The notes under the pieces: generated by a model | The model's input: the letters and a program-made list of their open reading frames with translations, nothing else | Databases searched by the model: none | What the model was told of the DNA's origin: nothing | Assembly: GCA_029560585.1 (NCBI GenBank) | Contig: JAKQKQ010000017.1 | Coordinates: 1-46,525 of the forward strand | DNA: 46,525 nt | From: Verrucomicrobiota bacterium | GTDB lineage: Bacteria > Verrucomicrobiota > Verrucomicrobiia > JADLBR01 | Direction of reading: 5' to 3' | Position numbers and translations under genes: made by a program | Part shown: positions 2,593 through 41,781 of the stretch, in pieces | Position numbering within the stretch: the first letter of the stretch is position 1 | Layout of the letters: each line of letters opens with the position of its first letter

Positions 2593-2616
2593 GATGGGGC
2601 CTCCCAGGATGGTTTC

Positions 2617-6431: not shown

Positions 6432-6466
6432 GTGTTTTCTCCCGACGCAACGGTCCGTGCCACTTC

Positions 6467-8107: not shown

Positions 8108-8112
8108 ACCCC

Positions 8113-9459: not shown

Positions 9460-9469
9460 CGGCCTCACC

Positions 9470-11554: not shown

Positions 11555-13395
11555 GTCTTTCGCCCTTTCTCTTGCCCGTGGGTTGCGACCATCCGATCGC
11601 TTCGTCCCCCGCAATGAGCGAAAATGCCCGTCCTCACAAAGGCTTTCATCGTCCCCATCTCACGGTTTGCCGGCCCCACGCCTGGCCGGATCGTGTACTT
11701 TCCCACCGCCGCCGGGACGATGAACGTCTCTGCGTAATGCACGACAAACGGAGCGAATGCACCATCGGGGCTCTCCACGACCGCTTCCTGGCCCTCCACG
11801 AGATTCAGCACATTCACGCCGCCGCGTTCGATCCCGCCCGTGTCGTGTGGCACTCGGCCCGAAAACCAATGCCGCCGGGTCTCTATGAACTCGCGCTCGT
11901 GCAGGCCCGTCCTCTCCTCGCGCCACCCTTCGCCCGAGGCGATCGCCACGACCCTGTTGATCAGGTTCTCCCTCACCCAGTCCGTGTCGCGCCCCCATTG
12001 GATGTTCGCGAGTCCGTGGTCCAGGTGGATCGGCCGGGGCCTCCCATCGAGCCCGAGCCGCGCCCAATCCCACATCTTGAACGTGAAAATGTAGGGCGTG
12101 GCGCTGATTTCCAACACCATGCTGTTCTTGCCCGAGCAATGGCACGTGCCCGCAGGGATCAGGAAATGATCGTGTTTCCTCGCGGGCCAGCGATTCACGT
12201 ATTTCGCGTCGTCGAACGGTGCCCCGCCCGCCTGCGCGGATGCCAACCCGCGCGCCATCGCAGCGCGATCGGCACCCGGCGTCAGGCCAAGGTACACGCA
12301 GGCGTCGGGAGCGGCATCCAGAATGTAGTAGCTTTCGTCTTGCGTGTAGTGCATCCCGAACTTCCACTGGATGTATTCGGTCATTGGATGCACCTGAAAA
12401 CTCAGGTTCCCCCCTCCCATCGTGTCCAGGAGGTCGAAGCGGATGGGAAACTCGTCACCAAAGCGCGCGTGGACGGCGTCGCCCAACAGCGCGCGGGGCC
12501 GATCGAAGACGATGTCGATCGCGGGGATCTCCACGCGATGCTCGCCCATGCCCAGCAACAGTGAATTCTCCTCCGGCACACAGTCGAAGCACCATGCGTA
12601 GTTTGGCGCCGTTCGATCGAGGTCGCACACCTCCTTCATCCACTGCCCGCCCCACGGCCCGGGATCAAAGAACGGCACGACCCTGAACGGTCGCCGCGTG
12701 GCTTCCTCCAGACCACGGCGCACGGCGTCGCCCTGGGCCAATTTCGGCGCGGCCCGATCATTCGTGTCCAGCAGGAAATCGAAACGCCTTAGCAGGGGCT
12801 TCTTCCATCGGTCGGCCACGCGCCAATCGATGAAGAACGCCCGCTTGTATTTTGCCCCGGGCGATTGCCCGGCGTTGCTGGCACCGAGGTTCCCAATCTC
12901 GCCCTGCCGCTGCCGCCGCTGGATCTCCCACCGGGCCAAATCGGCGTATAAGAGGATATCGCCGTCCGCAATCATACGCCCGCCCACGCCGACCACGAGC
13001 ACCACGCCCTCCGTCACCGCCGCGACCCGCGATTTGAATTCCGCCACGCGCCCCCCATCAAAGAACTCGGGTAACTCCAATGGCGACAGATAGCCAAACA
13101 CCGGATCGCCGCCGCCCAGCCATGGGGCGCAGAGTCGATCGATGTCGTCAGGCGGCTTTAGCGCCTCGGCCGATCGCAGGGAGAGCAAGGGCCGCAGTTC
13201 GCGCGCCAGGCAGTCGGCGACCCCCGCCTCGTCGACACCCGGGTAGCACTCCACGACCACCACCGCCCTCGTCGCCCCCCGCGCCGCGATCGCTTCGCGC
13301 AAACGCGTTCCGATCGCCCCCCAGCCCGAGACGCATGCCGCATCGGCCCCGGGCACCGCCAGAAACGGAGACCTGTCGTAATTCGATGCGCCCAT
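11551..13395 (-). CDS. Mannose-6-phosphate isomerase-like protein with a long N-terminal extension
   Basis: The protein has 614 residues, against about 300-420 for ordinary class I mannose-6-phosphate isomerases. The C-terminal half carries metal-site signatures: LSFQVHP (Q334, H336), QDESYYIL (E354) and IPAGTCHCSG. This fits Zn-dependent interconversion of mannose-6-P and fructose-6-P. Residues 1 to about 250 have no signature I recognise beyond a Rossmann-like hydrophobic strand (AVVVVECYPG) and a second hydrophobic run (VVLVVGVGG) near 120-130; it may be a nucleotide- or sugar-binding domain. There is no signal peptide, so it is cytoplasmic. GGAG lies 5 nt before ATG 13395; GTG 13401, overlapping the upstream stop as GTGA, is an alternative start. 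Confidence 0.8.
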   Translation of the reverse strand: MGASNYDRSPFLAVPGADAACVSGWGAIGTRLREAIAARGATRAVVVVECYPGVDEAGVADCLARELRPLLSLRSAEALKPPDDIDRLCAPWLGGGDPVFGYLSPLELPEFFDGGRVAEFKSRVAAVTEGVVLVVGVGGRMIADGDILLYADLARWEIQRRQRQGEIGNLGASNAGQSPGAKYKRAFFIDWRVADRWKKPLLRRFDFLLDTNDRAAPKLAQGDAVRRGLEEATRRPFRVVPFFDPGPWGGQWMKEVCDLDRTAPNYAWCFDCVPEENSLLLGMGEHRVEIPAIDIVFDRPRALLGDAVHARFGDEFPIRFDLLDTMGGGNLSFQVHPMTEYIQWKFGMHYTQDESYYILDAAPDACVYLGLTPGADRAAMARGLASAQAGGAPFDDAKYVNRWPARKHDHFLIPAGTCHCSGKNSMVLEISATPYIFTFKMWDWARLGLDGRPRPIHLDHGLANIQWGRDTDWVRENLINRVVAIASGEGWREERTGLHEREFIETRRHWFSGRVPHDTGGIERGGVNVLNLVEGQEAVVESPDGAFAPFVVHYAETFIVPAAVGKYTIRPGVGPANREMGTMKAFVRTGIFAHCGGRSDRMVATHGQEKGRKT

Positions 13396-13397
13396 GG

Positions 13398-15365
13398 TCA
13401 CTCCGCCGCCGGAAAGGTCGCGCGTCGCAAGAGGGAACTGCCGTGGGGCAGCAGCGTCACCTCGACATCGCCCCCCGCCGCGTCCCGCATCTTACCCCGC
13501 AGGCCCATCGGCGGGTGGCCCCATGGATCCAGCGAATCGTGCCCCTCCAACGCCACTGGCAGAAACGTGGCGTCCTTCGGCATCCGATAGTTCCAGGGAG
13601 CATCTTCTCTCGGCGTCACCTCGAAAGCATGAAAGCCGCTATCCTTGCCCCCCACGAGCCTGAGGTCTTCACTCACCTTGACGTCCGCCGGAAGCGGCAG
13701 CGAGTAGATGAGCGGGCCGCGAACAACGAACAGGTTACCATCATGGGCCCGCTCCATCCGCGGGCTGAAACGAAAATCCACGTGCACCTCTGCCGCCCCT
13801 TCCCATCGCCGGCTCACCTCGATCCGGCCGGGCAATTTTCGGATCGCCGCGCCGTCGCACGCCTCGACGCTAACATCGCCCGCGCCATCCGGCACGCGCA
13901 CCACCAGCGAAAACTCGACCGCCCGACTTGGCTCGACACGAAGGAGAATCGCGTCCCCAAACGGATATGCGGTCTCCTCCAGGATGCGGACCGGCACCCC
14001 GGCCACCTCCGTCTCCACGGCGCAGGGCCCGAAAAGCGCCGCCACCAGCGCGGGCCGGCCCGCCGCCAGATACCACATCCCCTCCACGTAGTACGGGAGC
14101 AGCCTCGTCGAGTTCAACGTGCAGCAGGCTGCGGCCCGATGGTAGGCGGCGTAGACGCAGCGCCCCCTGTGCAGCGTGCGGTCATCCGCCGATCGCTGAT
14201 CATCGTGACCAAGGTACTGCACCGCGACGTTAACCGGATGGAAGCGCGCGGCCTGGGCCGCGTTCAGGCACGTCCGCTCGGCGAATCTGGCCACCGAGAG
14301 ATCCCCCGAGTATGCCACGATCTGGTTCAACGACGGGATGCCCTCCGTCATCGAGCAGTACTCGCCCCACGTGTCGCCCGTCCCCTCGCGCCCCTTCACA
14401 TCTTCGTCGCCGACAATGTTGCCCGCCGGAGTGGTGTGGAGTTGGAGTTTGGTCAATGCGCTCGAGGCCGCCGCCCTGAAATCCTCGCGGCCAGTGAACG
14501 CGGCGCATATCTGCGCCATGTGGAGTCCCTCCATGATGTGCGGCGTGTGCTTCTGGAAATGGCGCCCGGCGTCCAATAGCGACCCCAATTGCATGTCGCC
14601 GTCCCGCACCTTGTGGCGCGAGTAATCCTCGTACAACCAGACCGCACCATCCCGGAATGCCGCCTTGCCCGTAATGCGGTAGAGCCACTCCAGGGTGTCC
14701 GTGAACCCCACCCCGTGCGACACACCGCCGTCGCGCTCTACCCCACGGCGCCCAAAGTACGTCCCAACCTTGTCCCGGTAAGTCGCCAGCGTCAGCGCCG
14801 CAGCTTTCTCCACCGCCTCCAATACCTCCCGCGATCCCGTGAACTCATGATACGCCAGCATCGCCTGGAATATCCGGCTCTGCGTCCAGAGTTCGCCATC
14901 CGCCCCTTTTGTCGGGAACCGCGTCTCGGGAGAATAGATCCCTATGTAGCCGTCGGGACCCCGCGCTGCGAGGATCGCCTCCATCCAACCCCTCGCCCTC
15001 TCCTTCAGCGCCTCGTTGCCAGTCAGGAATGCGAGGCGAACCATCGCGTCCTTCCAGTATCCCTCGTGCTCGCCCGCCCACCACGATTGTTCCTTGCTGA
15101 CCTCGTCCCCGTGCCTCACCTCAACGAAACCCGGTGCCCGCTTCTGTGCCGCGAAAAGCTCCAGTGAGACGCTCGTCCAGATCCGCTCGTAGGCGCCCGC
15201 CAGACCCTCCCCCAGATCCCGCCGCATCTGCTCCCTCATCCAGCCCTGCGGCATGACCGCACCCGCGCGCAAGGGCCTCAGCGGCGGCACCTCCCCGGAA
15301 TGTGATCCGGCCATCAGCCCGAGATGGGCGGCCCAAAGTATCATGACGCGGCCCCATGATGTCAT
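13398..15365 (-). CDS. Exported GH127-like family protein (DUF1680 type)
   Basis: The protein has 655 residues from ATG 15365, which has GGGGAGG at 7 nt spacing; in-frame ATGs at 15371 and 15389 are too close to or upstream of that site. A Sec signal covers about residues 1-24. Family blocks include WTQSRIFQAMLAYHEFTG and a catalytic cluster comparable to the neighbouring GH127: E335-Y-C337 and C414-C415. The two proteins are otherwise divergent, so this is a distinct subfamily rather than a recent duplicate. It probably removes a terminal furanose-type or related sugar outside the cytoplasm; specificity is not readable. It lies 36 nt downstream of the cupin gene and its stop overlaps the start region of the isomerase-like gene. 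Confidence 0.87.
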   Translation of the reverse strand: MTSWGRVMILWAAHLGLMAGSHSGEVPPLRPLRAGAVMPQGWMREQMRRDLGEGLAGAYERIWTSVSLELFAAQKRAPGFVEVRHGDEVSKEQSWWAGEHEGYWKDAMVRLAFLTGNEALKERARGWMEAILAARGPDGYIGIYSPETRFPTKGADGELWTQSRIFQAMLAYHEFTGSREVLEAVEKAAALTLATYRDKVGTYFGRRGVERDGGVSHGVGFTDTLEWLYRITGKAAFRDGAVWLYEDYSRHKVRDGDMQLGSLLDAGRHFQKHTPHIMEGLHMAQICAAFTGREDFRAAASSALTKLQLHTTPAGNIVGDEDVKGREGTGDTWGEYCSMTEGIPSLNQIVAYSGDLSVARFAERTCLNAAQAARFHPVNVAVQYLGHDDQRSADDRTLHRGRCVYAAYHRAAACCTLNSTRLLPYYVEGMWYLAAGRPALVAALFGPCAVETEVAGVPVRILEETAYPFGDAILLRVEPSRAVEFSLVVRVPDGAGDVSVEACDGAAIRKLPGRIEVSRRWEGAAEVHVDFRFSPRMERAHDGNLFVVRGPLIYSLPLPADVKVSEDLRLVGGKDSGFHAFEVTPREDAPWNYRMPKDATFLPVALEGHDSLDPWGHPPMGLRGKMRDAAGGDVEVTLLPHGSSLLRRATFPAAE

Positions 15366-15401
15366 CTTCATGCCTCCCCGTTTCCGCATTTTGTGATCAC
15401 G

Positions 15402-30148: not shown

Positions 30149-33100
30149 ATGAAATACCACCGACGCCTCATGCGCCTTACTTCAGCCACGGCACGTCCCA
30201 CCAACCCTTCAGTATCCCCAACGGTCAACAAACGGACCACTCCGCACCCGTCCGTCTCACGGGTCAATCGCTCGTGCCGAACGACCGCATTTCTCGCGGC
30301 CATAGCGCTCTTTCCCTGTGCCGCTCGCGCCATCGATGTCACATGGGAACCCCAGAGTCCCACGATCGGTTTTGCATCCCAGGAGGGCACGGCCTTCTAC
30401 AGCCTCGACATGCGCGACATCGACCTCGGCAACGGCCTGAGGGTGCCCCTGCGGTTCGTCTTCGACAGCGCGGCGACCATCTCCCCGGCCACGGCCACCA
30501 ATGGCGTGCCGGAGGGCGATGACTTCCGGAAAATGCGTTTCCTCAGCAGCCAGTCCTATGGCTGGGTCGGCTGGGGCTGCGCGCCGCTGGAGGCCTGCAT
30601 CGCGCAGGTGCGAGAAGACCAGTACAAGGTCCTCTACCCCAACGGACGCGTCGGTTACCTGCAGCAAAGCACGGTCGACCAGCAGGGCAATCCCTTGCCG
30701 GCAGGGCAGTCGCGCCTCTACTCCCAGCACATGCGCTGGGAGGGCACCGTCGATGGCGACGAAATCACGTTGACTCGATGGGACGGCTGGCGCGTCGTAT
30801 TCGAAAATGGGCGCATTGAGTCCATGCGCACCGACAAGGGCCGCACGTTCCTCTGGGAACGCCTCGGCCCCGACACCAAAACCTCCCGAATTTACGAGCC
30901 ATCCACCAGCACCACATTCCTCCAGGCCACGTATGGCGCCGATGGCCGCGTCGCCACCATCCAGGTCAACGGTGACACCTACACCCTCGCCTTCGATGGC
31001 AGTGGAGCCAACAGCCACCTCACCCGCATCACCCATCCCGACGGCGATGTGGACGCATTCGGCCTTTTGACCGGCCCTTCCCCAGTCATGAACCACACAA
31101 ACCACTTCGGCGTCGCGCTCACGCTCGCGTGGAATCCCACCAACCGCTGCGCGATCACCTCCGATGGCAAGTGGTCCTATGCGGTCCAGCATGTCGCCCA
31201 ACCCGGATGGGCGGAGGAACGCGGCCAGATCTATAACCTGCCATCTATCGAGATGACCCGCCCCGCCACCGGAGAAAAAATCAAACTCCAGTCCCAGGAG
31301 GGCAACACCACGGAAACGTTTACTGCCATCGATGACACAAAGATCGTCCGCTATTCCTACGAGGCCCAGGGACCCGTCAATGGCAAGTTGTACAAGATCG
31401 TCCAAACACAGGGGACGACGAATACCGTCCTCTACCGGGCGGACTACGATGCCGCCAACGGTCGCGTGCTGCGCACTTTCGATGCCCTGGGACGAACCAC
31501 TCTCTACACCTGGGAAAACCAGACCAACGCCCACCGGTTCGCACCGGCCCGGAAAAGGACGGTCACCAATCCTGCGGGCGAGATCCGCACGACCGAATAC
31601 GACGTCGAGGGCCGCCCCATCCTCTTTACCGATGCGGCCGGCGTACAACGCCGTATCGAACGCGACGAGCGCGGCCGTCCCATCCGCATCTACAACGATG
31701 CCAACACCCTCGTCCGGCAAATCACGTACAACAACCTCGACCGCGTCCTCACCGATACGCGTATCGATAACGGGGTCTCCCGCACCTGGACCTACGACTA
31801 TGCGGAACATGATGGCGAGAGCCTCCTCACACGCATCACGTCGCCCGAGGGCGTCGTCATCGAATACGACTACAACAACCGAGGCAACGCCATCGGGGTG
31901 CGCCGCGCCGGCGGACAGTGGACATTCACGCGCAACGCCGATACCCAGCGAATCGAGATGATCAAGGACTCGTACCTGTCACCGACCCGGTTCGAGTACG
32001 ACGCGCAAGGCAATCTCACCAAAGTCACCGACCCGTTGAACCATTCAATCGAGATCGGCTATGACGATCTCGACATGCCCAACCTCCTCCACGACGCCCT
32101 CGGCGCCGAGGCTCATCTCGCGTGGAACGCCGATCGCTCGTGGAAGACCATCGATGACTTCCGCAACAAGCGCTACACGGCAAAACACGACCACGCCGCC
32201 GCAGCGATTGGTGAGGCCGCCTCAGGGATGTTTCCCGTCACCCAGCCCGCGATCCGTTCCGGTTCCTACATGCGCGAGCAGGATCGCCTGGAGGTGGAAT
32301 TCACGTTCCCCGACGGTGCCAAGGACCAGCGCACCTTTGACGCCAACCGCGACATCGCCCAGTGGCAGGCCCGCGGCGCCCAGGCCACGGCGGCGTACTC
32401 GCGCGATGCCGCCGGACGCATCGCCCAAATCGACTGGAGCCACCTGGGCCGCAACGGCTCGATCACCTTCGGCTACACGAATGCCCAACTGATAGCAGCC
32501 TCGGCCCAATCGGCCGGTGTCACGATCTCCCATACCTTCGGCTACGACGCCGAGGCCCGCCTCGCATCGCTCGCCCAAAACGGACGCACGGCCCAGATGA
32601 CGTACTATGCCGACGGCTCGCTCAAGGAGATCGTTTACCCCACCGGCATGCATGTGCTGTACCGCTATAACGCGGATGGCAACATCTCCGAGATCAAGAA
32701 GGACGGCGTCACCCTGGCCTCATATCAATACGACACCCACGGCCGCCGATCCCTCCGCACGCTTGCGAACGGCCTGTCCACCTCCTACGTTTATGACGAC
32801 GTGAGTCGGCTGACGGATCAGGCGCTGGCGGGAAGCGGGGGCACGCTCCGGCAATGGCACTACGGCTTCGACGCCGCGGGGAACCGCTCGTGGACCGTCT
32901 ACGGCGCCATGACCAACGCCATCGGCGACGCCTACCGCCACGACGCCATGGGCCAGATCACCGGCGTCAAGTACGACGCCGCCAACGCCCCCGCCGGCTA
33001 CGACGCCGCCCAGGCCGCCCAAGGCGAAACCTTTACCTACGATGACGCCGGGAACCGATTGCAGAGCACCTTCAACGGCCAGGCCACCACCTACACCGTC

Positions 33101-34060
33101 GATGACCTCAACCGCTACACCGCACTCTCCGGCGGCATGAGCGCATCGCTCAACTACAACGCCCGCGGGGACCTCCTCGGCTGGTCCGGCTGGTCCTACG
33201 CCCACGACGCCTGGGGTCACATCATCGAGGCCTCCAAACCCTCGACCGGAGAAACCATCCGCTACCACTACGACGCCTTCGGGCAACGAGCCGGGAAGAC
33301 GGTCGGCTCAGGTGCCCCCGTCTGGTATTTGCATCACGAGGACGACCTCATCGAGGAATTCGATACGGCCACCCAATACGCCGTCTCCTACATCTTCGAG
33401 CCGGGCATCGACCGACCGCTCGCCCGCGTCGACCACACCACGGGCCAGATCGTGTACTACCACGCCGACTTCCTCGGCAGCACCGTCGCCCTCAGCGATG
33501 CCTCCGGTAACGTCGTCGAGGAGTACCGCTACGAGGTCTTCGGTGCACCCACCCTCTTCGACGCCTCCCACTCCACCCTCGCCACCTCCGCCTTCGGCAA
33601 CCGCTTCCTGTTCACCGGTCGGGAATGGGACGCCGAGACGGGGTTGTACCACTACCGGGCCAGGGCGTATGCGGCCGAGGTGGGGAGGTTTCTTGCTGGG
33701 GATCCGGTTCGGTTTCTGGGCAAAGATTCGAACTTGAATCGTTATGTCCAAAACGCCGCCCTCGGTTGGAGGGACCCATCGGGCACTAACCCGGTGGCTG
33801 ACTTTCTCAAAGGGGTTCTCATTGACCACATCCTCAACGAGCTTAAGGAGGCGGGCGAGGAGGCACGCAAGCATGGACCGAGCCGCGAAATGTGCGAGCC
33901 CACCGGAACCGATCAAAACGCGCCCCCCAACCAAGCGCAATCCCCAACTCCCACACAACCGGACCCTCAAGACTCCCAAGGGACCCAATCGTCCGATCCC
34001 TCCAGCAGCGAAACAACCGGGAACATGCCCCCCGGTTCCGCAACCGCACCCGAATTCTAA
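30149..34060 (+). CDS. RHS-repeat protein with Sec signal and low-complexity C-terminal tail
   Basis: This 1303-residue protein has a hydrophobic signal at about residues 44-60 (AFLAAIALFPCAARA). Residues from about 300 onward carry many YD-type repeats (YDxxGR-like) that build the RHS shell. The RHS-associated core (LYHYRARAYAAEVGRFLAGDP) lies around 1166-1187 and ends with WRDPSG near 1212. The remaining 90 residues are a variable tip: a short amphipathic helix (ILNELKEAGEEARKHG) then a Pro/Gln/Ser/Thr-rich tail ending SATAPEF. The tip shows no recognised nuclease, deaminase or protease motif. No VgrG, PAAR or type VI genes are nearby, so export is probably by Sec. A CPBP-like membrane protein gene follows. 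Confidence 0.93.
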   Translation: MKYHRRLMRLTSATARPTNPSVSPTVNKRTTPHPSVSRVNRSCRTTAFLAAIALFPCAARAIDVTWEPQSPTIGFASQEGTAFYSLDMRDIDLGNGLRVPLRFVFDSAATISPATATNGVPEGDDFRKMRFLSSQSYGWVGWGCAPLEACIAQVREDQYKVLYPNGRVGYLQQSTVDQQGNPLPAGQSRLYSQHMRWEGTVDGDEITLTRWDGWRVVFENGRIESMRTDKGRTFLWERLGPDTKTSRIYEPSTSTTFLQATYGADGRVATIQVNGDTYTLAFDGSGANSHLTRITHPDGDVDAFGLLTGPSPVMNHTNHFGVALTLAWNPTNRCAITSDGKWSYAVQHVAQPGWAEERGQIYNLPSIEMTRPATGEKIKLQSQEGNTTETFTAIDDTKIVRYSYEAQGPVNGKLYKIVQTQGTTNTVLYRADYDAANGRVLRTFDALGRTTLYTWENQTNAHRFAPARKRTVTNPAGEIRTTEYDVEGRPILFTDAAGVQRRIERDERGRPIRIYNDANTLVRQITYNNLDRVLTDTRIDNGVSRTWTYDYAEHDGESLLTRITSPEGVVIEYDYNNRGNAIGVRRAGGQWTFTRNADTQRIEMIKDSYLSPTRFEYDAQGNLTKVTDPLNHSIEIGYDDLDMPNLLHDALGAEAHLAWNADRSWKTIDDFRNKRYTAKHDHAAAAIGEAASGMFPVTQPAIRSGSYMREQDRLEVEFTFPDGAKDQRTFDANRDIAQWQARGAQATAAYSRDAAGRIAQIDWSHLGRNGSITFGYTNAQLIAASAQSAGVTISHTFGYDAEARLASLAQNGRTAQMTYYADGSLKEIVYPTGMHVLYRYNADGNISEIKKDGVTLASYQYDTHGRRSLRTLANGLSTSYVYDDVSRLTDQALAGSGGTLRQWHYGFDAAGNRSWTVYGAMTNAIGDAYRHDAMGQITGVKYDAANAPAGYDAAQAAQGETFTYDDAGNRLQSTFNGQATTYTVDDLNRYTALSGGMSASLNYNARGDLLGWSGWSYAHDAWGHIIEASKPSTGETIRYHYDAFGQRAGKTVGSGAPVWYLHHEDDLIEEFDTATQYAVSYIFEPGIDRPLARVDHTTGQIVYYHADFLGSTVALSDASGNVVEEYRYEVFGAPTLFDASHSTLATSAFGNRFLFTGREWDAETGLYHYRARAYAAEVGRFLAGDPVRFLGKDSNLNRYVQNAALGWRDPSGTNPVADFLKGVLIDHILNELKEAGEEARKHGPSREMCEPTGTDQNAPPNQAQSPTPTQPDPQDSQGTQSSDPSSSETTGNMPPGSATAPEF

Positions 34061-34142
34061 GCCAGAGTCGAGTGAATATGGAACGCACACCGATCCGATC
34101 CAGCGCTGTGTGGATCACCCGCAAGAATGGCATGGCCAGCCC

Positions 34143-34652
34143 GTGCGTATAATAAGACGAATCCTCTCCGCGCTGTCAGACACGGATCAACCGCTCATCG
34201 GGTACGCTTTCAAAGCGGCTCTGATATCGGTTGTTCCGAGTCTGGTGGTCGGCTTTGTGGCGTTACCCCTACTCCCCGGCACGCCTCTTCCAATTCAACT
34301 TGACATCCACACCGGTCCGATGCTGTTCGGAATTGCCGTCCTCGTTTCCCCCTGGCTGGAAACTCTCCTCATGTGGCCCGTGCTCTGGCTGCTCGGTCGC
34401 TTGACACGTAATCCGATCCATCAGGCACTGATGTCCACCGCCTTTTGGGCACTCCTCCATGCGATCCGGCGCCCAGCGCGCGCGCTCTGCGTGGCGTGGG
34501 GATTCTTTGTCTTTTCAGTCTGCTTTCTCGCCTGGAAAAGACGCTCGACTGGATCCGCTCTGCTGGCGACGGGCTTTACGCATTCATTCGACAATCTATT
34601 TATTCTCATGGCCTGGGCAGCCACTGAAGGCAACGGCTGTGGAACTGATTGA
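34143..34652 (+). CDS. CPBP-like intramembrane protease family protein, copy 1
   Basis: This 169-residue membrane protein has four to five helices. Residues in the order expected for CPBP/Abi proteases are visible: a Glu in PWLETLLMWP, FWALLH, and the final HSFDN. The first motif is E-T instead of the usual E-E, so activity may be altered. I chose GTG 34143 because it matches the N-terminus of the second copy (both read x-D-Q-P-x-x-G-Y about 20 residues in). It follows the RHS gene by 82 nt. In bacteria such proteins serve in prenyl-type processing, self-immunity and defence. Linkage to the RHS tail suggests an immunity or processing partner, which is inference. Confidence 0.72.
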   Translation: MRIIRRILSALSDTDQPLIGYAFKAALISVVPSLVVGFVALPLLPGTPLPIQLDIHTGPMLFGIAVLVSPWLETLLMWPVLWLLGRLTRNPIHQALMSTAFWALLHAIRRPARALCVAWGFFVFSVCFLAWKRRSTGSALLATGFTHSFDNLFILMAWAATEGNGCGTD

Positions 34653-34752
34653 TGCGCCGAAGCCGTCAACATCGGAGACCATCCGCTGCCACTACGACGC
34701 CTTCGGGCCGCGCGCCGGAAAGACCGTCGGCACCGGAGCGCCCACCTGGTAC
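34648..34752 (+). pseudogene. RHS fragment A (internal piece)
   Basis: The frame reads PKPSTSETIRCHYDAFG followed by RAGKTVGTGAPTWY, matching the RHS gene at about 33233-33330 (KPSTGETIRYHYDAFG..RAGKTVGSGAPVWY). Homology then breaks off and the frame ends at 34830. It has no start of its own and overlaps the last codons of the CPBP-like gene. This is debris of an RHS gene left by recombination. Confidence 0.85.
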
Positions 34753-34899
34753 CCGGGATATGGACTGGCGAATGGGTTGGAATCCGTGGGATTGAAACAA
34801 CTGCCAGGGCCATGTCGATGCCGTTATTAACGAGTATCGTCGGGTCGCAGATGACCGAAACAACGACCGATGATCGACTCTAATCTCCGAAAGTGACCC

Positions 34900-35466
34900 A
34901 TGCAACCCTCCGCATTACATCTCCAGAAATCGCAAATCGCCGCCAAATTTATCATCATGTGCGCTGTGATAATCTCCTGCTTTTCTGCGGCAAGGGCATC
35001 TGGCCTTTGGCGGCTCCTGTTCCCCTCTCGAGATCTGTTCAATCTGCTCGTAAACGAAAACATCGATATCACGTGCATTGGGGCCGCCATCTCCGCTGAT
35101 TTTACACTTAAATATGACGGCCCGTACACGGCAGGGATACTCCTCACAAACTTATCTTCGCCACGAGGTGGCGATGGGATTGCCTTGGCCCTACGCATGC
35201 GCATCGATTTTTCCGATGGCGAGCAATTGAAACATTCCGTAACGTCTGGCGCGCAATACACGCCGTTCATCGGATTGACGGGCAACGCGTTATCGCTCGT
35301 TGAGTTTCGTTCACCTGAAGACGTCCCGAAGGGCAGGCCCATAAAATGTGTGGCCACAATCGTGACGCCCGATGCAAGTCTGGCAAACAAGTACGGCACG
35401 GCCAGCTTCTTTGTCCAGAAGCGGTCTGACAATTATGTAACAGGAAAGAGTCGGGGTGCACCGTAG
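34900..35466 (+). CDS. Low-GC secreted protein of unknown function
   Basis: This 188-residue protein has a Sec-type signal (FIIMCAVIISCFSAARA, about residues 17-33), possibly a lipobox-like LxxC variant but not convincing. The rest is beta-rich, with ADFTLKYDGPYTAGILL, LRMRIDFSDG, LSLVEFRSPEDV and CVATIVTPDA, suggesting one or two beta-sandwich domains. Base composition drops to about half G+C, well below its surroundings, suggesting recent acquisition. It sits between RHS fragments. Such a position is common for immunity genes of polymorphic toxins, but I recognise no immunity family with confidence. Confidence 0.6.
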   Translation: MQPSALHLQKSQIAAKFIIMCAVIISCFSAARASGLWRLLFPSRDLFNLLVNENIDITCIGAAISADFTLKYDGPYTAGILLTNLSSPRGGDGIALALRMRIDFSDGEQLKHSVTSGAQYTPFIGLTGNALSLVEFRSPEDVPKGRPIKCVATIVTPDASLANKYGTASFFVQKRSDNYVTGKSRGAP

Positions 35467-35476
35467 GCGTCTGTGC

Positions 35477-35775
35477 AACCCAGGAGCGGCGGCAGCCTTC
35501 CTCGCCGGATATATTTTCGGAAAACTGACCGAGTGCCTTGAGGACGCAATAAAACATGTTATGGAAGACGCCAAGAGAAACGGGGGGACAGTCCTCACAT
35601 GGGCGACTTAACCGGTGTTAATCAGAATGTACCACCAAACCAGGCGTAGTCGCCTGACACCACGCAATCCGATCCCAATGGCAATGAAACCCAAGACTCT
35701 GGACAGTCGGGCCCGTTCAGCAGCGAAACAACCGGGAACATGCCTTCCGGTTCAGTCACGGCCCCTGAATTTTAG
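35477..35775 (+). pseudogene. RHS fragment B: decayed second copy of the RHS C-terminal tip
   Basis: The first frame reads NPGAAAAFLAGYIFGKL followed by KRNGGT, comparable to the NPVADFLKGVLIDHIL...RKHGPS start of the RHS tip, and ends at a TAA. A shifted frame continues TGVNQNVPPNQA, then a TAG stands where the intact gene has CAG, and the same frame goes on to SSETTGNMPSGSVTAPEF and stop, nearly identical to the intact tail (SSETTGNMPPGSATAPEF). One frameshift and one nonsense change therefore separate it from a full tip. It lies just upstream of the second CPBP-like gene. Confidence 0.88.
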
Positions 35776-35835
35776 GCCTAATTACAGGACGGCTGCAACC
35801 GCTTAGACGCAATATCATTGTACCGATGATGGCCC

Positions 35836-36384
35836 ATGATGGCGGACAAACGCAGCAGAACTGTATCACGAATGAAGCCGGTTCTTTCCTGGCTTCGCGA
35901 TAGATTGGCGAATACGGATCAACCGGTAGTGGGTTACGCTATCACGGCAGCCCTCATATCGTTTGTTCCCAGTTATGCGATCGGCCTCTTGGTTTCACCT
36001 CTGTTGGTCGACATAGCGCCTCCGTTTGCAGTCGAAAGGCACCTAAACCCCCTCGGATTTGTTATGATGGTTCTCGTCGGTCCTTCGGTTGAAACGGTGC
36101 TTATGTGGCCAATGCTATCGTTGTTCGGCCGCATGACCCGAGAGCCGACGCGGCAGGTGATCGTATCAACCGTCTTCTGGGCAATCCTGCACGGAATAGC
36201 GCACCCTCTGTGGGGCTTTCTCATTTCATGGCCATTCTTTGTTTTCTCGATGGCTTTTGTCGCCTGGAAGAAGCGCTCGGCTCAGGCAGCAATTCTGGCA
36301 ACGGGTTTGACGCACTCATTTCACAATCTTGGGGTTCTAATCAGCATTGCGGCCACAATGGACGGCCCGGCCAACATGCCGTAA
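35836..36384 (+). CDS. CPBP-like intramembrane protease family protein, copy 2
   Basis: This 182-residue membrane protein (or 170 from ATG 35872) is homologous along its whole length to the protein at 34143, with roughly half the residues identical by eye. Equivalent motifs are PSVETVLMWP, FWAILHG and LTHSFHN. The E-T in motif 1 is kept, so it is a subfamily trait rather than decay. It follows a degenerate RHS tip just as copy 1 follows the intact tip. The region is lower in G+C than the island average. The open frame is intact although its RHS partner is broken. Confidence 0.72.
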   Translation: MMADKRSRTVSRMKPVLSWLRDRLANTDQPVVGYAITAALISFVPSYAIGLLVSPLLVDIAPPFAVERHLNPLGFVMMVLVGPSVETVLMWPMLSLFGRMTREPTRQVIVSTVFWAILHGIAHPLWGFLISWPFFVFSMAFVAWKKRSAQAAILATGLTHSFHNLGVLISIAATMDGPANMP

Positions 36385-36496
36385 TGCTGGTTCTCTTTGA
36401 TTTCCGTGGCGGCGATGATTGGAACGTGTTTGCCTGATGATCCCGTGCGATCCCGGTCGCAAACGAAGACGTTTCGGCAGTGGCTATGTTAACGAT

Positions 36497-36997
36497 GACA
36501 TCCGTCCCCACCGCTCCCTCCGCGCCCTTGCCAACGGCCTGCGCACCTCCTGCGCTCATGATACCATGAGCCGGCTGACGGATCAGGTGCTGGTGGGCAT
36601 CGGCGGCACGCTCCGGAAATGCCACTACGGTTTCGACGCCGCCCTCAGCGACAGCTCCGGCAACATTGTCGAGGAATACCGATACGAGGCCTTCGGTTCG
36701 CCCACCATCTTCGACCCGTCTCACTCCACCCTCGCCACCTTTGCGTTCGGTAACCGCTTCCTCTTCACCGGCCACGAGTGGGATGCAGCGACAGGGCTGT
36801 ACCACTACCGGGCAAGGGCGCACTCGGCGGAGATGGGAAAGTTCCTGCAACCGGATCCAATTCGATTTGCCGCAAGCGATCGAAACGCCTACCGCTATGC
36901 ACTCCATTCACCGACATGTTTCCGCGATCCTTTAGGCCTCGATGATGACGGGTGGGATCACATTCCGTGCTTTGGGATCAATAGAACGGCGAGATGA
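36497..36997 (+). pseudogene. RHS fragment C with a precise internal deletion
   Basis: The frame reads RSLRALANGLRTS through CHYGFDAA and then directly LSDSSGNIVEEYRYEAFG, LYHYRARAHSAEMGKF and a short end GINRTAR. In the intact RHS gene the two blocks are separated by about 610 bases (32880-33488); the join lies at a shared CGC. The deletion keeps the frame. The end differs from the intact tip after RDPLGL, so it represents another tip variant, now truncated. There is no proper start or signal peptide. Confidence 0.87.
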
Positions 36998-37018
36998 CGG
37001 ATGCTGCGATGATCGCGA

Positions 37019-38188
37019 TCAGAGATTGCACGCGTCCAGCGAGACCTGGTGTACCTTGAGATCGTGTTCGTAGAGTCCCGGCGGATTGGGAATCTCGCCG
37101 CGGAGGATCCTCGCGAGTTCGTGGAGCTGTCCGGCATAACGGTCGTCCGGCGCCTTGAACTCGATGCAGTTGAGGCCTTCCTTGTAAGGCGGCTTCGCCT
37201 TCTTGAGGAACATCTTCACGACCAGCTTGTCGACGCGGGAGAGTCCGTTCTCGTTGAGCCCCGTGGTGTGTTTCACCTTGCGGAAGTCCTCGATCGGCTC
37301 GATCTCGATCGTGCCGTCCGTCCCGTCGATGCGGATGTGGCGGCAGGGCTGTGTGCCCCGCGAGCAGACGCGGAACGTCGCAATGCAGCGCGGATACTCC
37401 ATGACTGTCAACGTATGCGTCGGTGCATTCTCCGGATCGCCCGGCGCGGGCTTGACGATGGAATAGGTCTTCTCCGGCATCGCGTCGTCGAAGATCGGCA
37501 TCGCCCACTCGATCGCATGGCAGGCGAGCAGGTAAGCGGTACCGCCCGGATACGCCGAGGCGTATTCCGGATACTTCGGGTATCCGTAGCTGTGACTGAG
37601 GTCCGCCCCGATCGCGAACACCTCGCCGATCACCCCGTCATGCGCGAGCTTGGTGGCGCAGTTGATCGCCTCGTTCGCACGGAACATGTATCCGATCTGA
37701 AGCGGGATGCCGCGCGCCTTGCAGATGCCGCTCATCCGCCTGAAGCCGACCGGATCGGTGCCGAGGGGCTTGTCCATGTGCATCGGATACCCCGCCGCGG
37801 CGATCTTGGTCGAGACCTCGACCAGCTCCGAGTTCGAGACCTCGACGACGATCAGGTCGGGTTTCACCTCATTGAGCACCCGGTCCGGCGTCAGCTTCGG
37901 GAACTTCTCATACTTCTTGGGGTCCGGATCCTTCATGCGCATGGCGGTCGATGCGGTGTCGTCCACCCAGCCGACGACCTCGAAGTCGTTGGTGAGCTTG
38001 AGGAGCGCCCCGAACTTGCCCTCCGCATGGTTGTGGACGATGCCCCAGAGAACAACTTTCGCCTTGCGGTTGCCGATCGGCTTCCACTGCGGTCCCGACA
38101 TCGCCGCATCATCGATGCGAGAACAGCCGGCAAACAATGCCGCCAGCGCCAGGCAGGAAACAAAGGACAGACAAGACTTACGGGACAT
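37019..38188 (-). CDS. Gfo/Idh/MocA-family oxidoreductase, predicted lipoprotein
   Basis: This 389-residue protein starts at ATG 38188 (AGGA upstream). The first 25 residues form a lipoprotein signal ending LAALFAGC. The Rossmann part begins VVLWGIVHNHAEGKF, which is not the classical GxGxxG, so nucleotide binding is uncertain. MHMDKPLGTD carries the family EKP-like motif (DKP here) with the catalytic Lys. The C-terminal dimer domain follows. Family members oxidise sugars or cyclitols with NAD(P). A lipid-anchored member is odd because soluble cofactor is in the cytoplasm. It is the last gene of a three-gene minus-strand set, 21 nt after the next oxidoreductase gene. Confidence 0.82.
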   Translation of the reverse strand: MSRKSCLSFVSCLALAALFAGCSRIDDAAMSGPQWKPIGNRKAKVVLWGIVHNHAEGKFGALLKLTNDFEVVGWVDDTASTAMRMKDPDPKKYEKFPKLTPDRVLNEVKPDLIVVEVSNSELVEVSTKIAAAGYPMHMDKPLGTDPVGFRRMSGICKARGIPLQIGYMFRANEAINCATKLAHDGVIGEVFAIGADLSHSYGYPKYPEYASAYPGGTAYLLACHAIEWAMPIFDDAMPEKTYSIVKPAPGDPENAPTHTLTVMEYPRCIATFRVCSRGTQPCRHIRIDGTDGTIEIEPIEDFRKVKHTTGLNENGLSRVDKLVVKMFLKKAKPPYKEGLNCIEFKAPDDRYAGQLHELARILRGEIPNPPGLYEHDLKVHQVSLDACNL

Positions 38189-38209
38189 TTTCCATGATCC
38201 TTTCACCCT

Positions 38210-39688
38210 TTAACCCTCGAACGGATTCCATCCCTTGCGGTATCCCTTCGTCACCCATTTGTCCGCTTCCGCGTTGTTGGTGACATGGGTTCCGTTCCAT
38301 CCGAGGACCGAGCCCTTGCCGGCGAGCGAGGAGATGTTGCCGAGGCACACCGCCTTCGCGAGCGGGACGGCGTACTCGAAGTTATCGTTCGCCTCGCGGC
38401 CCTCCTTGATCGCGGTGTAGAACTCGCGGACGTGCGGCAGGGTGTTGCGACGGTAGTTGAAATCCTCCGGACGGTCCAGGCGCGGCATGCACCATCCCGC
38501 CGAGCGCGGCAGGAAGCGGTGGCCGCCGTGGTGGGTGAACCAGAGGTTGGCCTTGGTGCCGACGAAAAGGACGCCGTTCTTGTAGAAAGGATCCTTCTCG
38601 AAGCCCCACCTCTTCTCCTCGTCGATCACCCGCGGCGGGATGTTCAGCCACTCGCGCTTGTGGGGCAGGCCGAACTTGTTGACGAACTCCTTCTTGTAGG
38701 GGACGCCGTCCTTGAGTCCGTCCCACCAGTGGAGCGTGACTTCGCCGTGCTCCTTCGTCGCCGGAAAGTGAAATTCGAAGACGTCGCGGTAGGCCCACGC
38801 GCCCTTGCACGCGAACTGCGCGTCGTGGCAGGTCACCGTGTCCGGATCCTTGAGCCCGAGCGCCCAGAACGCGACGTCCATGATGTGCATGCCGAGGTTG
38901 CCGATCGAGCCGTTGCCGTAGCCGATCCAGCTGTGCCAGCCGTGCGGATGCATGCCGTCCTGGTCTTCGCTCGACGGATAGAAGTCGCAGACCGGCGAGC
39001 CGCCGCACCAGGAATTCCAGTCCATCCCCTTCGGCGGCGGAACCGCCGCGGGACGGTTGTAGATCGAATTGCAGCGGTCGTCGTACGCCCACACTTCCTT
39101 CACCTCGCCGAGCGCGCCCTCCTGGATGCGATCGACACAGTATTTCATGGACGGGAAGGTGTGCCCGTAGGTCCCGGTCTGGGTCACGATCCCGGGATGC
39201 TCGCGGGTCTCCGCGAGGAGGAGGTCGCCTTCTGCCGCGGTGAGAACGAGCGGCTTGTCGAGGAAGACGTGGATGCCGCGGCGGATCGCCATCACCGCTG
39301 GCAGGATGTGCTGGTGGTTCGGGGTCTCGATGATCACCGCGTCCAGCTCGTCGTCGAAGGCCTCGAACATGTCCTGGTAGGTGGCAAACTTCTTCACCCC
39401 GGTGTAGTTGGCGGAGCAGGCGGGATCCTTGAGCTCCGCGACTTCGTTGTCCATCAGCGCGAACGTCGCCGGGTCGGGATCGACTATCGCGACCAGATTC
39501 TCCAGGAGGACCGCATTGATGATCTGCCGCGCCTGGAGTCCGCAGCCGATCAACGCAACGCGGAGCTTGGCGCCTTTGGCGACCTGCCGCACCCGGCCTT
39601 CGCCGAATCCGGCATGCCCGATGTTGAAGAGCGGCAGCGCGCCCGCCGCGACCATTCCCTTGAAAAGACTCCTTCTGGATACGTTCAT
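38210..39688 (-). CDS. Tat-exported Gfo/Idh/MocA-family oxidoreductase
   Basis: This 492-residue protein begins with a Tat signal (SRRSLFKGMVAAGALPLF). RVALIGCGLQARQ is the Rossmann glycine motif, ETPNHQH and FLDKPLV are the family substrate and catalytic blocks (DKP with Lys). The long C-terminal domain with GNLGMHIMDVAFWALG is typical of the planctomycete/verrucomicrobial exported branch. Tat export lets a prefolded, cofactor-loaded enzyme reach the periplasm, as in glucose-fructose oxidoreductase. It is likely co-expressed with its neighbours. The substrate is unknown. Confidence 0.9.
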   Translation of the reverse strand: MNVSRRSLFKGMVAAGALPLFNIGHAGFGEGRVRQVAKGAKLRVALIGCGLQARQIINAVLLENLVAIVDPDPATFALMDNEVAELKDPACSANYTGVKKFATYQDMFEAFDDELDAVIIETPNHQHILPAVMAIRRGIHVFLDKPLVLTAAEGDLLLAETREHPGIVTQTGTYGHTFPSMKYCVDRIQEGALGEVKEVWAYDDRCNSIYNRPAAVPPPKGMDWNSWCGGSPVCDFYPSSEDQDGMHPHGWHSWIGYGNGSIGNLGMHIMDVAFWALGLKDPDTVTCHDAQFACKGAWAYRDVFEFHFPATKEHGEVTLHWWDGLKDGVPYKKEFVNKFGLPHKREWLNIPPRVIDEEKRWGFEKDPFYKNGVLFVGTKANLWFTHHGGHRFLPRSAGWCMPRLDRPEDFNYRRNTLPHVREFYTAIKEGREANDNFEYAVPLAKAVCLGNISSLAGKGSVLGWNGTHVTNNAEADKWVTKGYRKGWNPFEG

Positions 39689-39702
39689 GGTTCCTCCGTT
39701 CT

Positions 39703-39866
39703 GGCTCGAAAATTCAGCGCAACGAGTGAGTGGCGAAGGGCTCGCGCCCTTCGGTCGTCGGCTGAGCGAACGCCGAGGCCAGAATGTTGGAAAAATCGCC
39801 TCTGGCGATCGGCTTCGCTACGAATTTTCCGCCCCGGTGGTCCGGCTGCGGCCGGATGAAATCTGA
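39703..39866 (+). repeat. Structured intergenic repeat, copy B
   Basis: This is the second copy of the 18242-18402 element, here between two minus-strand genes of the aldolase/oxidoreductase set. The hairpin CGAAGGGC/GCCCTTCG is at 39734-39753, followed by the ATCGCC/GGCGAT and CCGGC/GCCGG hairpins near 39796-39856. Stems are identical to copy A while loops differ. It starts with CTCGAAAATTCAG and lies immediately upstream of the Tat-exported oxidoreductase gene, so it would be part of that mRNA leader if the genes are co-transcribed. Confidence 0.85.
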
Positions 39867-39875
39867 GGAGAAATC

Positions 39876-40928
39876 TCACTTGCCCCATGGATTCTCCGCG
39901 GTGATGCCGACGAACTTGAGCCGGGCATCGACCTCGGCCTTCATCTTGTCCGACATCGCGAACTCCTCGACCTTGCCGGCGGCGGTGCGCGACAGGCGGT
40001 TGCGGAAGATGCCGAGACGCTGCAACACGTAGAGGTGCGGACCGCGCATCTCGTCATCGCCGTGCTTGCTGAAGACGTCGCCTAGATTCGCCATGTAGAG
40101 ATACTTGGTGAAGGCGGCGGCGAGTTCGGGATCGGAGGCGTCCGCACCCGCGGACAGCCGCCTGAACACCCGGACGAAAAGGCCGGCATAGGCGGGACGC
40201 TGCGAAATCGCCCCGCGCGTGCCGATGCGCCGGCCCTGGTAAACCCAGCCTTTCGCGCCCCAGCCGCTGAATACGGTCTTGATCTCGGGGCGCGACAGGA
40301 GCTGTTCCATGCGCGCGTTCACCTGCTCGCCGGGGGACTCTTCCTTCACCCAGCCGTAGGTTTCCGGGAACTCCTTCGCAAGGGTGACGATCAAGTCGAC
40401 GTCCGGCTGCGGACTCTTCCCGTTGTAGGTCTGGATGATCACCGGGAGCGTCGTTTCCATTGCGAGCGCGCGGTAGTGAGCCACCATCGTGGTCTGGTCG
40501 GTGGCGTCGTCCGGCGGACGCGCCAATATCGCCATCTTCGCTCCGGTCCTTTTCGCGACCGCCTCGACCTTCTTCACGCGCGCGATCGCCTCCGCGCTCG
40601 TCTTGCCGGGGCAGATCGCCGTGATGCGTGAGTTGAATTCCGCGCCCGGTTTTGCCGCCCGTTCGGCCAGCGCCTGGAGCCCTGCCTCATACTCGCCGGT
40701 TCCGTCCAGCGACCCGACCTCGCCCGCGGTCGGCCAGATGATGCCGCCGACGCCGCTCCTCTCGACGAACTCCGCCTCCTTGATGAGCACGGGCACGTCG
40801 AGCTCAGCCTTCTCGGTCCAGGGTGTGACCAGCAGCGGAAAAGGGCCTTCCAAAACCGCCGCGGTGCCCTTGCCGACACAGGAAATCATGTTCGCGAACA
40901 CGAGCGACAAAAGCCACAACTTCCTCAT
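39876..40928 (-). CDS. Exported dihydrodipicolinate synthase/N-acetylneuraminate lyase family protein
   Basis: This protein has 350 residues from ATG 40928. The N-terminal 24-28 residues (MRKLWLLSLVFANMISC then VGKGTAA) look like a Sec or lipoprotein signal. The TIM barrel begins FPLLVTPWTEKAELD, a standard family start. Schiff-base Lys is K195 in GWVKEES, and PVIIQTYNG carries the catalytic Tyr region. Family enzymes are class I aldolases or dehydratases of keto-acids and sugar acids and are normally cytoplasmic, so a signal peptide is unusual. It is separated from the next oxidoreductase gene only by repeat copy B and is divergent from a PAS-AraC regulator. Confidence 0.85.
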   Translation of the reverse strand: MRKLWLLSLVFANMISCVGKGTAAVLEGPFPLLVTPWTEKAELDVPVLIKEAEFVERSGVGGIIWPTAGEVGSLDGTGEYEAGLQALAERAAKPGAEFNSRITAICPGKTSAEAIARVKKVEAVAKRTGAKMAILARPPDDATDQTTMVAHYRALAMETTLPVIIQTYNGKSPQPDVDLIVTLAKEFPETYGWVKEESPGEQVNARMEQLLSRPEIKTVFSGWGAKGWVYQGRRIGTRGAISQRPAYAGLFVRVFRRLSAGADASDPELAAAFTKYLYMANLGDVFSKHGDDEMRGPHLYVLQRLGIFRNRLSRTAAGKVEEFAMSDKMKAEVDARLKFVGITAENPWGK

Positions 40929-40956
40929 GAGGCCAATTATCTCAGATTCCACCCGG

Positions 40957-40973
40957 CGATACTTGTATTATCG
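40957..40973. promoter_or_regulatory. Candidate operator between the aldolase-family and AraC-family genes
   Basis: The 70-base divergent gap contains the inverted repeat CGATA-N7-TATCG (40957-40961/40969-40973), overlapping a plus-strand TATTAT (40966-40971) that could be a -10 for the regulator. Its central position between divergent start codons suits a shared operator. No clear -35 was seen. Confidence 0.35.
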
Positions 40974-40998
40974 AAGGCAAAAAGTGTGTAATTCGCTC

Positions 40999-41781
40999 AT
41001 GGCGTATCGGCAGCGATACACAAAGAAGACGATTCCGGGGGAAAAGGCCGCACGGATGGTGCGCGAGTTTATGGAGGCGGCGGGGCCATCGATGCGACTT
41101 CTGGTCGACACAATGGAGACCATGCCCGAAGTCGGGCTTACGGTGAAGAACGCCGAGGGACGCATCATGCACTCCAACCGCTACAACGTATCCGTCTCCG
41201 GCTGGCGCTCGCTTGACGACATGCTCGGCTACACCTCGGAAGAGCTATATCCGCCGGACCAGGCGGCGGTGTACGCGGGACGTGACCGGGAGGTGATGGA
41301 AACCGGGCGGCCGATCATCGACCGCATCTACGGGTTCGTCGCGGACCGCTCGACGGACCTCAACTGCGTGTCGGTGCGTCCGGTCGTCGGCACGGATGGG
41401 AAGCGCATCGGCACGGCCACCGTCTATTACCGCGCCCAGCGAAAGATGAAGACGACGAACTGGTACGACCCGATCCGCAAGTCGATCGCCTACCTGAACG
41501 ACCACTACGCCGAGAGCGTGCCGGTTGCGAAGCTCGCCGCGCTTTCGCATTATTCGGTGTCGCAGTTCCGCAAGCGCTTCCATGCGCTCACGCAGTCGTC
41601 GCCATCCGATTACATCCTGCAGGTCCGCGTCAACGCCGCCCGGACGCTGCTCTCGACCACCGACATGCTGATCACCGACATCGCCGCGGAAACCGGCTTC
41701 TACGACCACGCTCACTTCATCCGCACCTTCCACCGCTACACCGGGCTCACCCCGGCCAAGTACCGCAAGCGCCTGCTTTAG
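40999..41781 (+). CDS. PAS-AraC family transcriptional regulator
   Basis: This is a 260-residue protein from ATG 40999. Residues about 35-147 resemble a PAS sensor: MPEVGLTVKNAEGRIMHSN, YTSEELYPPDQAAVYAGRD and GTATVYYRAQ. Residues about 158-260 form the AraC double helix-turn-helix, with VAKLAALSHYSVSQFRKRF and ITDIAAETGFYDHAHFIRTF followed by TPAKYRK. It is divergent from the exported aldolase/oxidoreductase genes and is their likely activator. The PAS ligand is unknown; it would sense a small molecule in the cytoplasm. In-frame upstream ATGs would overlap the divergent gene and are unlikely. Confidence 0.9.
   Translation: MAYRQRYTKKTIPGEKAARMVREFMEAAGPSMRLLVDTMETMPEVGLTVKNAEGRIMHSNRYNVSVSGWRSLDDMLGYTSEELYPPDQAAVYAGRDREVMETGRPIIDRIYGFVADRSTDLNCVSVRPVVGTDGKRIGTATVYYRAQRKMKTTNWYDPIRKSIAYLNDHYAESVPVAKLAALSHYSVSQFRKRFHALTQSSPSDYILQVRVNAARTLLSTTDMLITDIAAETGFYDHAHFIRTFHRYTGLTPAKYRKRLL

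Follow-up and report, generated by a model that had tools for sequence, protein, structure and literature searches.

A conserved operon-like locus in Verrucomicrobiota combines an exported aldolase-fold protein with two exported Gfo/Idh-type proteins: a putative extracytoplasmic sugar-processing module

Among exported Gfo/Idh enzymes, BT2158 has been termed a periplasmic glycoside 3-dehydrogenase (PMC11300592), and GFOR and AAOR carry signals for twin-arginine translocation (Tat) (PMC4628093). Two known 3-keto-glycoside eliminases are described as Mn-dependent (PMC10628242). According to a further report, the Gfo/Idh oxidoreductase NanOx and the DHDPS-superfamily lyase NanA act in one pathway, the use of 2,7-anhydro-sialic acid (PMC7535918). 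In this work, we describe a locus in the draft genome of a Verrucomicrobiota bacterium (G000, assembly GCA_029560585.1; 7.06 Mb in 336 contigs), found in a stretch of 46,525 nucleotides of contig JAKQKQ010000017.1 that is referred to here as the window. The locus encodes a class I aldolase-fold protein of the DHDPS type, two Gfo/Idh-type proteins (GfoA and GfoB) and a divergent PAS-AraC regulator. The arrangement is real, conserved and built from known folds, and it is undescribed within the literature searched; the open-licence papers covered gave no description of exported DHDPS proteins, or of Gfo proteins with Verrucomicrobia, that matches the module. We tentatively, and with reservations, regard it as a regulated extracytoplasmic sugar-processing module, which probably dismantles plant or algal sugars ahead of import. 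The elements of the locus are the following:

39876 to 40928, minus strand: DHDPS-fold (PF00701) exported lyase-like protein (Pfam, alignments, hhalign and a low-confidence fold match)
38210 to 39688, minus strand: GfoA, Tat-type exported Gfo/Idh/MocA oxidoreductase (Pfam, NF058561 BT_2158_fam and PDB matches)
37019 to 38188, minus strand: GfoB, lipoprotein-type exported Gfo/Idh-fold protein (Pfam, match to 5a02 and alignment)
40999 to 41781, plus strand: divergent PAS-AraC regulator (Pfam and divergent orthologues heading the same gene set)
40929 to 40998, no strand: divergent promoter region of 70 bp (read by eye and by alignment)
36978 to 37022, minus strand: remnant of c8, the fourth gene of the module, LIAIIAASVISPFY followed by a stop (comparison with intact c8 proteins)

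The three minus-strand enzyme genes form an operon-like run that faces the regulator gene 70 bp away, and all are full length compared with aligned relatives. Review of open reading frames (ORFs) and Pfam matches located these genes and the regulator where the initial annotation had placed them, with some starts revised. The likely starts of the DHDPS-fold protein (ATG 40928; ORF 40952-39876) and GfoB (ATG 38188; ORF 38206-37019) give genes shorter than the listed ORFs, the start of GfoA (ATG 39688; ORF 39688-38210) is the listed one, and the listed regulator ORF begins at GTG 40489, within the DHDPS gene, the start matching relatives being ATG 40999. As read from the sequence, the three enzymes carry the different types of export signal that the initial annotation had ascribed to them: a Sec/lipoprotein-like leader on the DHDPS-fold protein (MRKLWLLSLVFANMISC), a Tat-type leader on GfoA (MNVSRRSLFKGMVAAGALPLF) and a lipoprotein-type leader ending in LFAGC on GfoB. 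The surprise expressed there at exported oxidoreductases was not borne out, since periplasmic BT2158 and the Tat-signal enzymes GFOR and AAOR are known; its other surprise, the class I aldolase-fold partner outside the cytoplasm, is kept as the unusual element of the module.

The module is conserved: in several genomes belonging to a different order of the phylum, the orthologues are clustered and the regulator again diverges from them. Of 387 genomes sampled from the phylum, 18 had members of the DHDPS subfamily (E ≤ 1e-20), as had 50 of the 161 genomes searched in the order to which G363 belongs (E ≤ 1e-30). The 91 members above 250 bits were kept, the four of 95 matches below this value were dropped, and neighbourhoods were fetched without some weak or fragmentary matches from both genome searches. 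Gfo genes make up 30 of the 123 directly adjacent same-strand neighbours of the DHDPS gene, against 24 of 437 other locus genes (odds ratio 5.6; p 1e-8, uncorrected for relatedness and a rough guide only). Close orthologues of the window GfoA (> 700 bits) lie within 4 kb of a DHDPS gene in nine other loci and those of GfoB (> 450 bits) in ten loci, and the gene order DHDPS-GfoA-GfoB-c8 is found in L098, L166 and L176. A divergent PAS-AraC orthologue, 58-71% identical where measured, heads the same set of genes in six loci (L150, L171, L177, L184, L188, L191). Because GfoA, GfoB and the divergent regulator recur beside the DHDPS gene, the grouping is not a matter of chance. Moreover, the DHDPS domain is joined in single ORFs to GfoB (L140, where the lipoprotein leader of GfoB has apparently shrunk to a linker and a masked stretch follows later, inside GfoB), to a WbsX/GH99-like domain (L150; PF14307, E 2e-42) and to a pectate-lyase-like helix (L184; PF12708, E 1e-9), and these fusions therefore tie it to extracytoplasmic glycan work. 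Neighbouring gene runs of the subfamily include the glycoside hydrolase (GH) families GH5, GH10, GH31, GH43 and GH20, beta-helix proteins and an aldose epimerase.

A FastTree phylogeny places the window DHDPS-fold protein with L130 (on the L050 contig) and L131, with support 0.885; this group falls in a 20-member clade (0.999), all remaining members of which are from a different order of the phylum. Relatives from its own class, including a paralogue on contig C147 of G000, form a Tat-type branch that is 35-41% identical to it. The window lineage likely gained the module horizontally; contaminating sequence in the draft genome (4.2%) may instead account for it. Two tandem DHDPS-subfamily genes, one Sec-type and one Tat/lipoprotein-type, are present in L138 (5901-8134).

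GfoA matches PF01408 (59.4 bits) and PDB entries 8tdf/8tdh (E about 2e-20), and it contains the Rossmann motif GCGLQAR (GxGxx) and the lysine motif LDKP. Like BT2158, it is a Gfo/Idh enzyme with an export signal, here a Tat-type leader, and it matches NF058561 (BT_2158_fam) at E 6e-49; its 166.9 bits, against a curated cut-off of 750, place it outside that family. The Tat signal is also a feature shared with GFOR and AAOR, for which we know of no aldolase partner. A Tat-like motif occurs in 40 of the 44 neighbouring GfoA genes. DKP is present in all ten window-type GfoA; among the remaining 34 members of the GfoA cluster, 27 have EKP, one has DKP and six show no match in the stretch searched. 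At the end of contig L050 (4786-4864), a Tat GfoA-like start (MKVNRRNFFKG) runs directly into apparent C-terminal residues of the same gene, which looks like a large deletion or an assembly collapse.

GfoB matches PF22725 (33.6 bits) and falls slightly below the cut-off of 24 for PF01408 (22.2 bits); its nearest solved structure by sequence is the aldose-aldose oxidoreductase AAOR (5a02, E 1.3e-9). Unlike GFOR and AAOR, it has a lipoprotein signal and lacks GxGxxG, in place of which stands GIVHNH. The pattern G(I/V)(V/I/T)HNH is found in all eight window-type GfoB aligned, and only L040 retains GTG. Inspection of the cofactor residues thus gave a divided result, as GfoA keeps both the Rossmann motif and the lysine, whereas GfoB keeps DKP and has lost GxGxxG. 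A structure prediction for GfoB alone was discarded (predicted local distance difference test score, pLDDT, 35).

The DHDPS-fold protein matches PF00701 (25.6 bits, cut-off 22.1), and hhalign gives 98.1% to the canonical DHDPS of the same genome. Both DKP motifs and the Schiff-base lysine of the initial annotation are present, K195 being numbered from ATG 40928; this residue aligns with K161 in the canonical copy, and 89 of the 91 members retain it (all but L136 and L174). The class I aldolase fold with a Schiff-base lysine is supported at the sequence level. A structure model built from two sequences (mean pLDDT 58), which supports the fold only, matches DHDPS-type structures at Z 17.7-20, with L-KDA dehydratase and HypD among the matches. 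Fold and lysine are shared with DapA, NanA, KDG aldolase and L-KDA dehydratase of the DHDPS/N-acetylneuraminate lyase superfamily; in contrast to these, the protein is exported, has lost two canonical features and is partnered with exported Gfo proteins. The first of these features is the GTTGE-type pattern G-[ST]-[TG]-G-E, the carboxylate motif of pyruvate-type DHDPS/NAL/KDG aldolases; it occurs in none of the 91 members, as opposed to all four of the genome's own canonical DHDPS-family copies checked. The second is the catalytic tyrosine, Y133 of DapA, whose position holds Gln in all 91 members when aligned with canonical DHDPS. With these two changes, the protein is unlikely to be a pyruvate aldolase of the DapA/KDG type. 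R137, Q166, E197, R244 and R295, each invariant in all 91 members, mark a pocket unlike the canonical one; the residues marked on the protein are the leader (to about residue 25), K195, Q166-T167, R137, R244 and R295.

The same residues bear on a classical oxidative sugar-acid route in the periplasm, in which Gfo would oxidise C1 of an aldose and the DHDPS-fold protein would be a 2-keto-3-deoxy-acid (or sialic-acid-type) aldolase/dehydratase working through a pyruvate-like imine. Superfamily membership with L-KDA dehydratase and DapA, the structure matches to L-KDA dehydratase and HypD, and the closeness of GfoB to AAOR are in keeping with it. NanOx and NanA likewise bring a Gfo/Idh enzyme together with a DHDPS-superfamily (Neu5Ac) lyase in sialic-acid use (PMC7535918). 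The loss of the carboxylate motif and the tyrosine disfavours this route, and no aldonate dehydratase or sialidase family was found among the scanned neighbours, a scan that was not exhaustive; we consider it rather unlikely. NanOx and NanA work inside the cell, and NanA retains the canonical motifs. The broader suggestion of the initial annotation, a periplasmic sugar pathway next to the PAS-AraC gene, is supported by the sequence. Its further suggestion of a non-enzymatic role corresponds to an exported protein with a binding or scaffolding function for the Gfo enzymes, and fits the loss of two canonical catalytic features, the missing lysine in L136 and L174 and the degenerate cofactor motif of GfoB; the lysine conserved in 89 of 91 members and several invariant polar residues, unneeded by a pure scaffold, argue against it and make it quite improbable.

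Returning to the sugar-processing module, the recurrent partner of GfoA has an imine-type fold without the usual pyruvate-binding residues, and on the most economical reading the DHDPS-fold protein is likely a Schiff-base lyase for keto-sugars that GfoA would produce extracytoplasmically. Glycanases would release a sugar or glycoside, and GfoA, which like GFOR would pass through Tat in the folded state with NAD(P) already bound, would oxidise it to a keto-sugar. K195 would then form an imine with the ketone of the keto-sugar, and the protein would cleave or eliminate adjacent to it. GfoB, anchored in the membrane and altered in its dinucleotide motif, would act on the product or deliver it; c8, lost in the window, is possibly an outer-membrane channel, and the product would be imported and sensed via the PAS-AraC protein. 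The partner enzyme distinguishes this scheme from the BT2158 oxidation-elimination route, where the eliminases described in PMC10628242 are Mn-dependent; no metal-dependent eliminase or hydratase gene was found among the Pfam-scanned neighbours, which did not include every neighbour. A more specific and unlikely proposal is that the DHDPS-fold protein acts on keto-glycosides as an imine-forming eliminase or retro-aldolase that needs no metal, performing extracytoplasmic oxidation/Schiff-base glycan cleavage, which, if true, would be a third glycan-cleaving chemistry beside hydrolysis and metal-assisted beta-elimination. Extracellular glycan breakdown is mostly viewed as hydrolysis or lyase action, and a conserved exported module of redox and aldolase-fold proteins in Verrucomicrobiota, with fusions to domains resembling glycanases, would extend this view to oxidation with a bound cofactor and to Schiff-base chemistry. 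The module offers few testable targets, namely three genes and one lysine.

The leaders were classified by a simple rule of our own and not by a trained predictor (twin arginine with a hydrophobic stretch, Tat; basic n-region with a hydrophobic stretch, Sec; hydrophobic stretch only, short; L088 was moved by hand to Tat and L154 to Tat-like), which gave 33 Tat, 28 Sec and 19 short hydrophobic leaders (80 export-type) and 11 members with none. Five of these 11 are cut at contig ends, L154 has a twin R-K lipoprotein-like start, and five with intact starts are leaderless (L097, L100, L155, L156, L190). Homologues without signals, which the initial annotation had named as grounds for doubting export, therefore exist in 5 of 91 cases, beside other kinds of genes, and most other members carry leaders. 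A zinc alcohol dehydrogenase gene (assigned by Pfam on one member) lies near L097, L155, L156 and L190, and an EamA-like gene (assigned by eye) near L097 and L100; none of the five directly adjoins Gfo. Since leaders recur across the subfamily, the export signals are not due to chance. The short leaders, Met followed by about ten hydrophobic residues (10-13), occur in a group of relatives that includes L050 and call for caution, but they may be genuine export signals of that lineage because the same type starts c8 and the fusion of DHDPS with the pectate-lyase-like domain. A misreading of the leaders on proteins that are in fact cytoplasmic, as the five leaderless homologues beside zinc alcohol dehydrogenase (4/5) or EamA-like genes (2/5) and the 10-13-residue leaders could suggest, is very improbable given the typical Tat and lipoprotein leaders of most members, the Tat-like motif in 40 of 44 GfoA and the short leaders on the fusion and on c8, whose C-terminal Phe (8/8) is like that of outer-membrane proteins.

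Several observations weigh against an extracytoplasmic sugar-processing module. The lipobox of the window DHDPS-fold protein (MISC) is imperfect, and the closest relative found, L050 (70%), carries merely an 11-residue hydrophobic leader. Directly adjacent Gfo is absent from 56 of the 81 leader-bearing members; the comparison with leaderless members (adjacent Gfo in 0 of 5 versus 25 of 81) involves numbers too small to link the lack of a leader with the lack of Gfo. Each fusion type was seen once only, in draft genomes, and the structure model of the DHDPS-fold protein is poor. As GxGxxG is absent from all eight window-type GfoB aligned, NAD(P) binding may have been lost there. In another branch, an exported DHDPS protein instead has an MFS transporter and an SDR as neighbours, and GH10 and a XylR-like regulator are also present; this arrangement suggests the same sequence of acting outside, importing and finishing inside.

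The regulator is matched by PAS_4, HTH_18 and HTH_AraC in Pfam. A TATAAT-like element (AAAGTGTATAATTC, window 40975-41001), TGTAAT in the window, lies a few nucleotides before the PAS-AraC ATG in most relatives and is a candidate for a leaderless mRNA or an operator; it was read by eye, and rows L150 and L188 are misplaced in the seven-row upstream alignment.

Intact c8 is a protein of 260 amino acids. In the window, its gene is broken at about 36979, and the 14 codons left end beside an RHS-like fragment, so the module may be damaged here or the contig joined at the break. No solved relative of c8 was found at E up to 1, and its reading as a beta-barrel was set aside, the alternation test being weak (z 0.8 to 2.4). 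The RHS-core-like fragment that abuts c8 (36419-36997, assigned by eye without a Pfam match) and a large RHS-repeat protein (30149-34060) lie within window 30149-36997, and local GC content drops to 0.54-0.59 between 34.5 and 37.5 kb. Window 1186-15389, some 22 kb away from the module, holds minus-strand sulfatases (1186-2592 and 6467-8431), a GH2 and two GH127, and is a locus for a sulfated or arabinose-containing polysaccharide. Finally, one member of neighbour family c9, present in six loci (L101 11354-14569 and five related ones), matches PF18582, 'hydrazine synthase alpha middle domain' (E 9e-29), which probably reflects a shared domain and not anammox.

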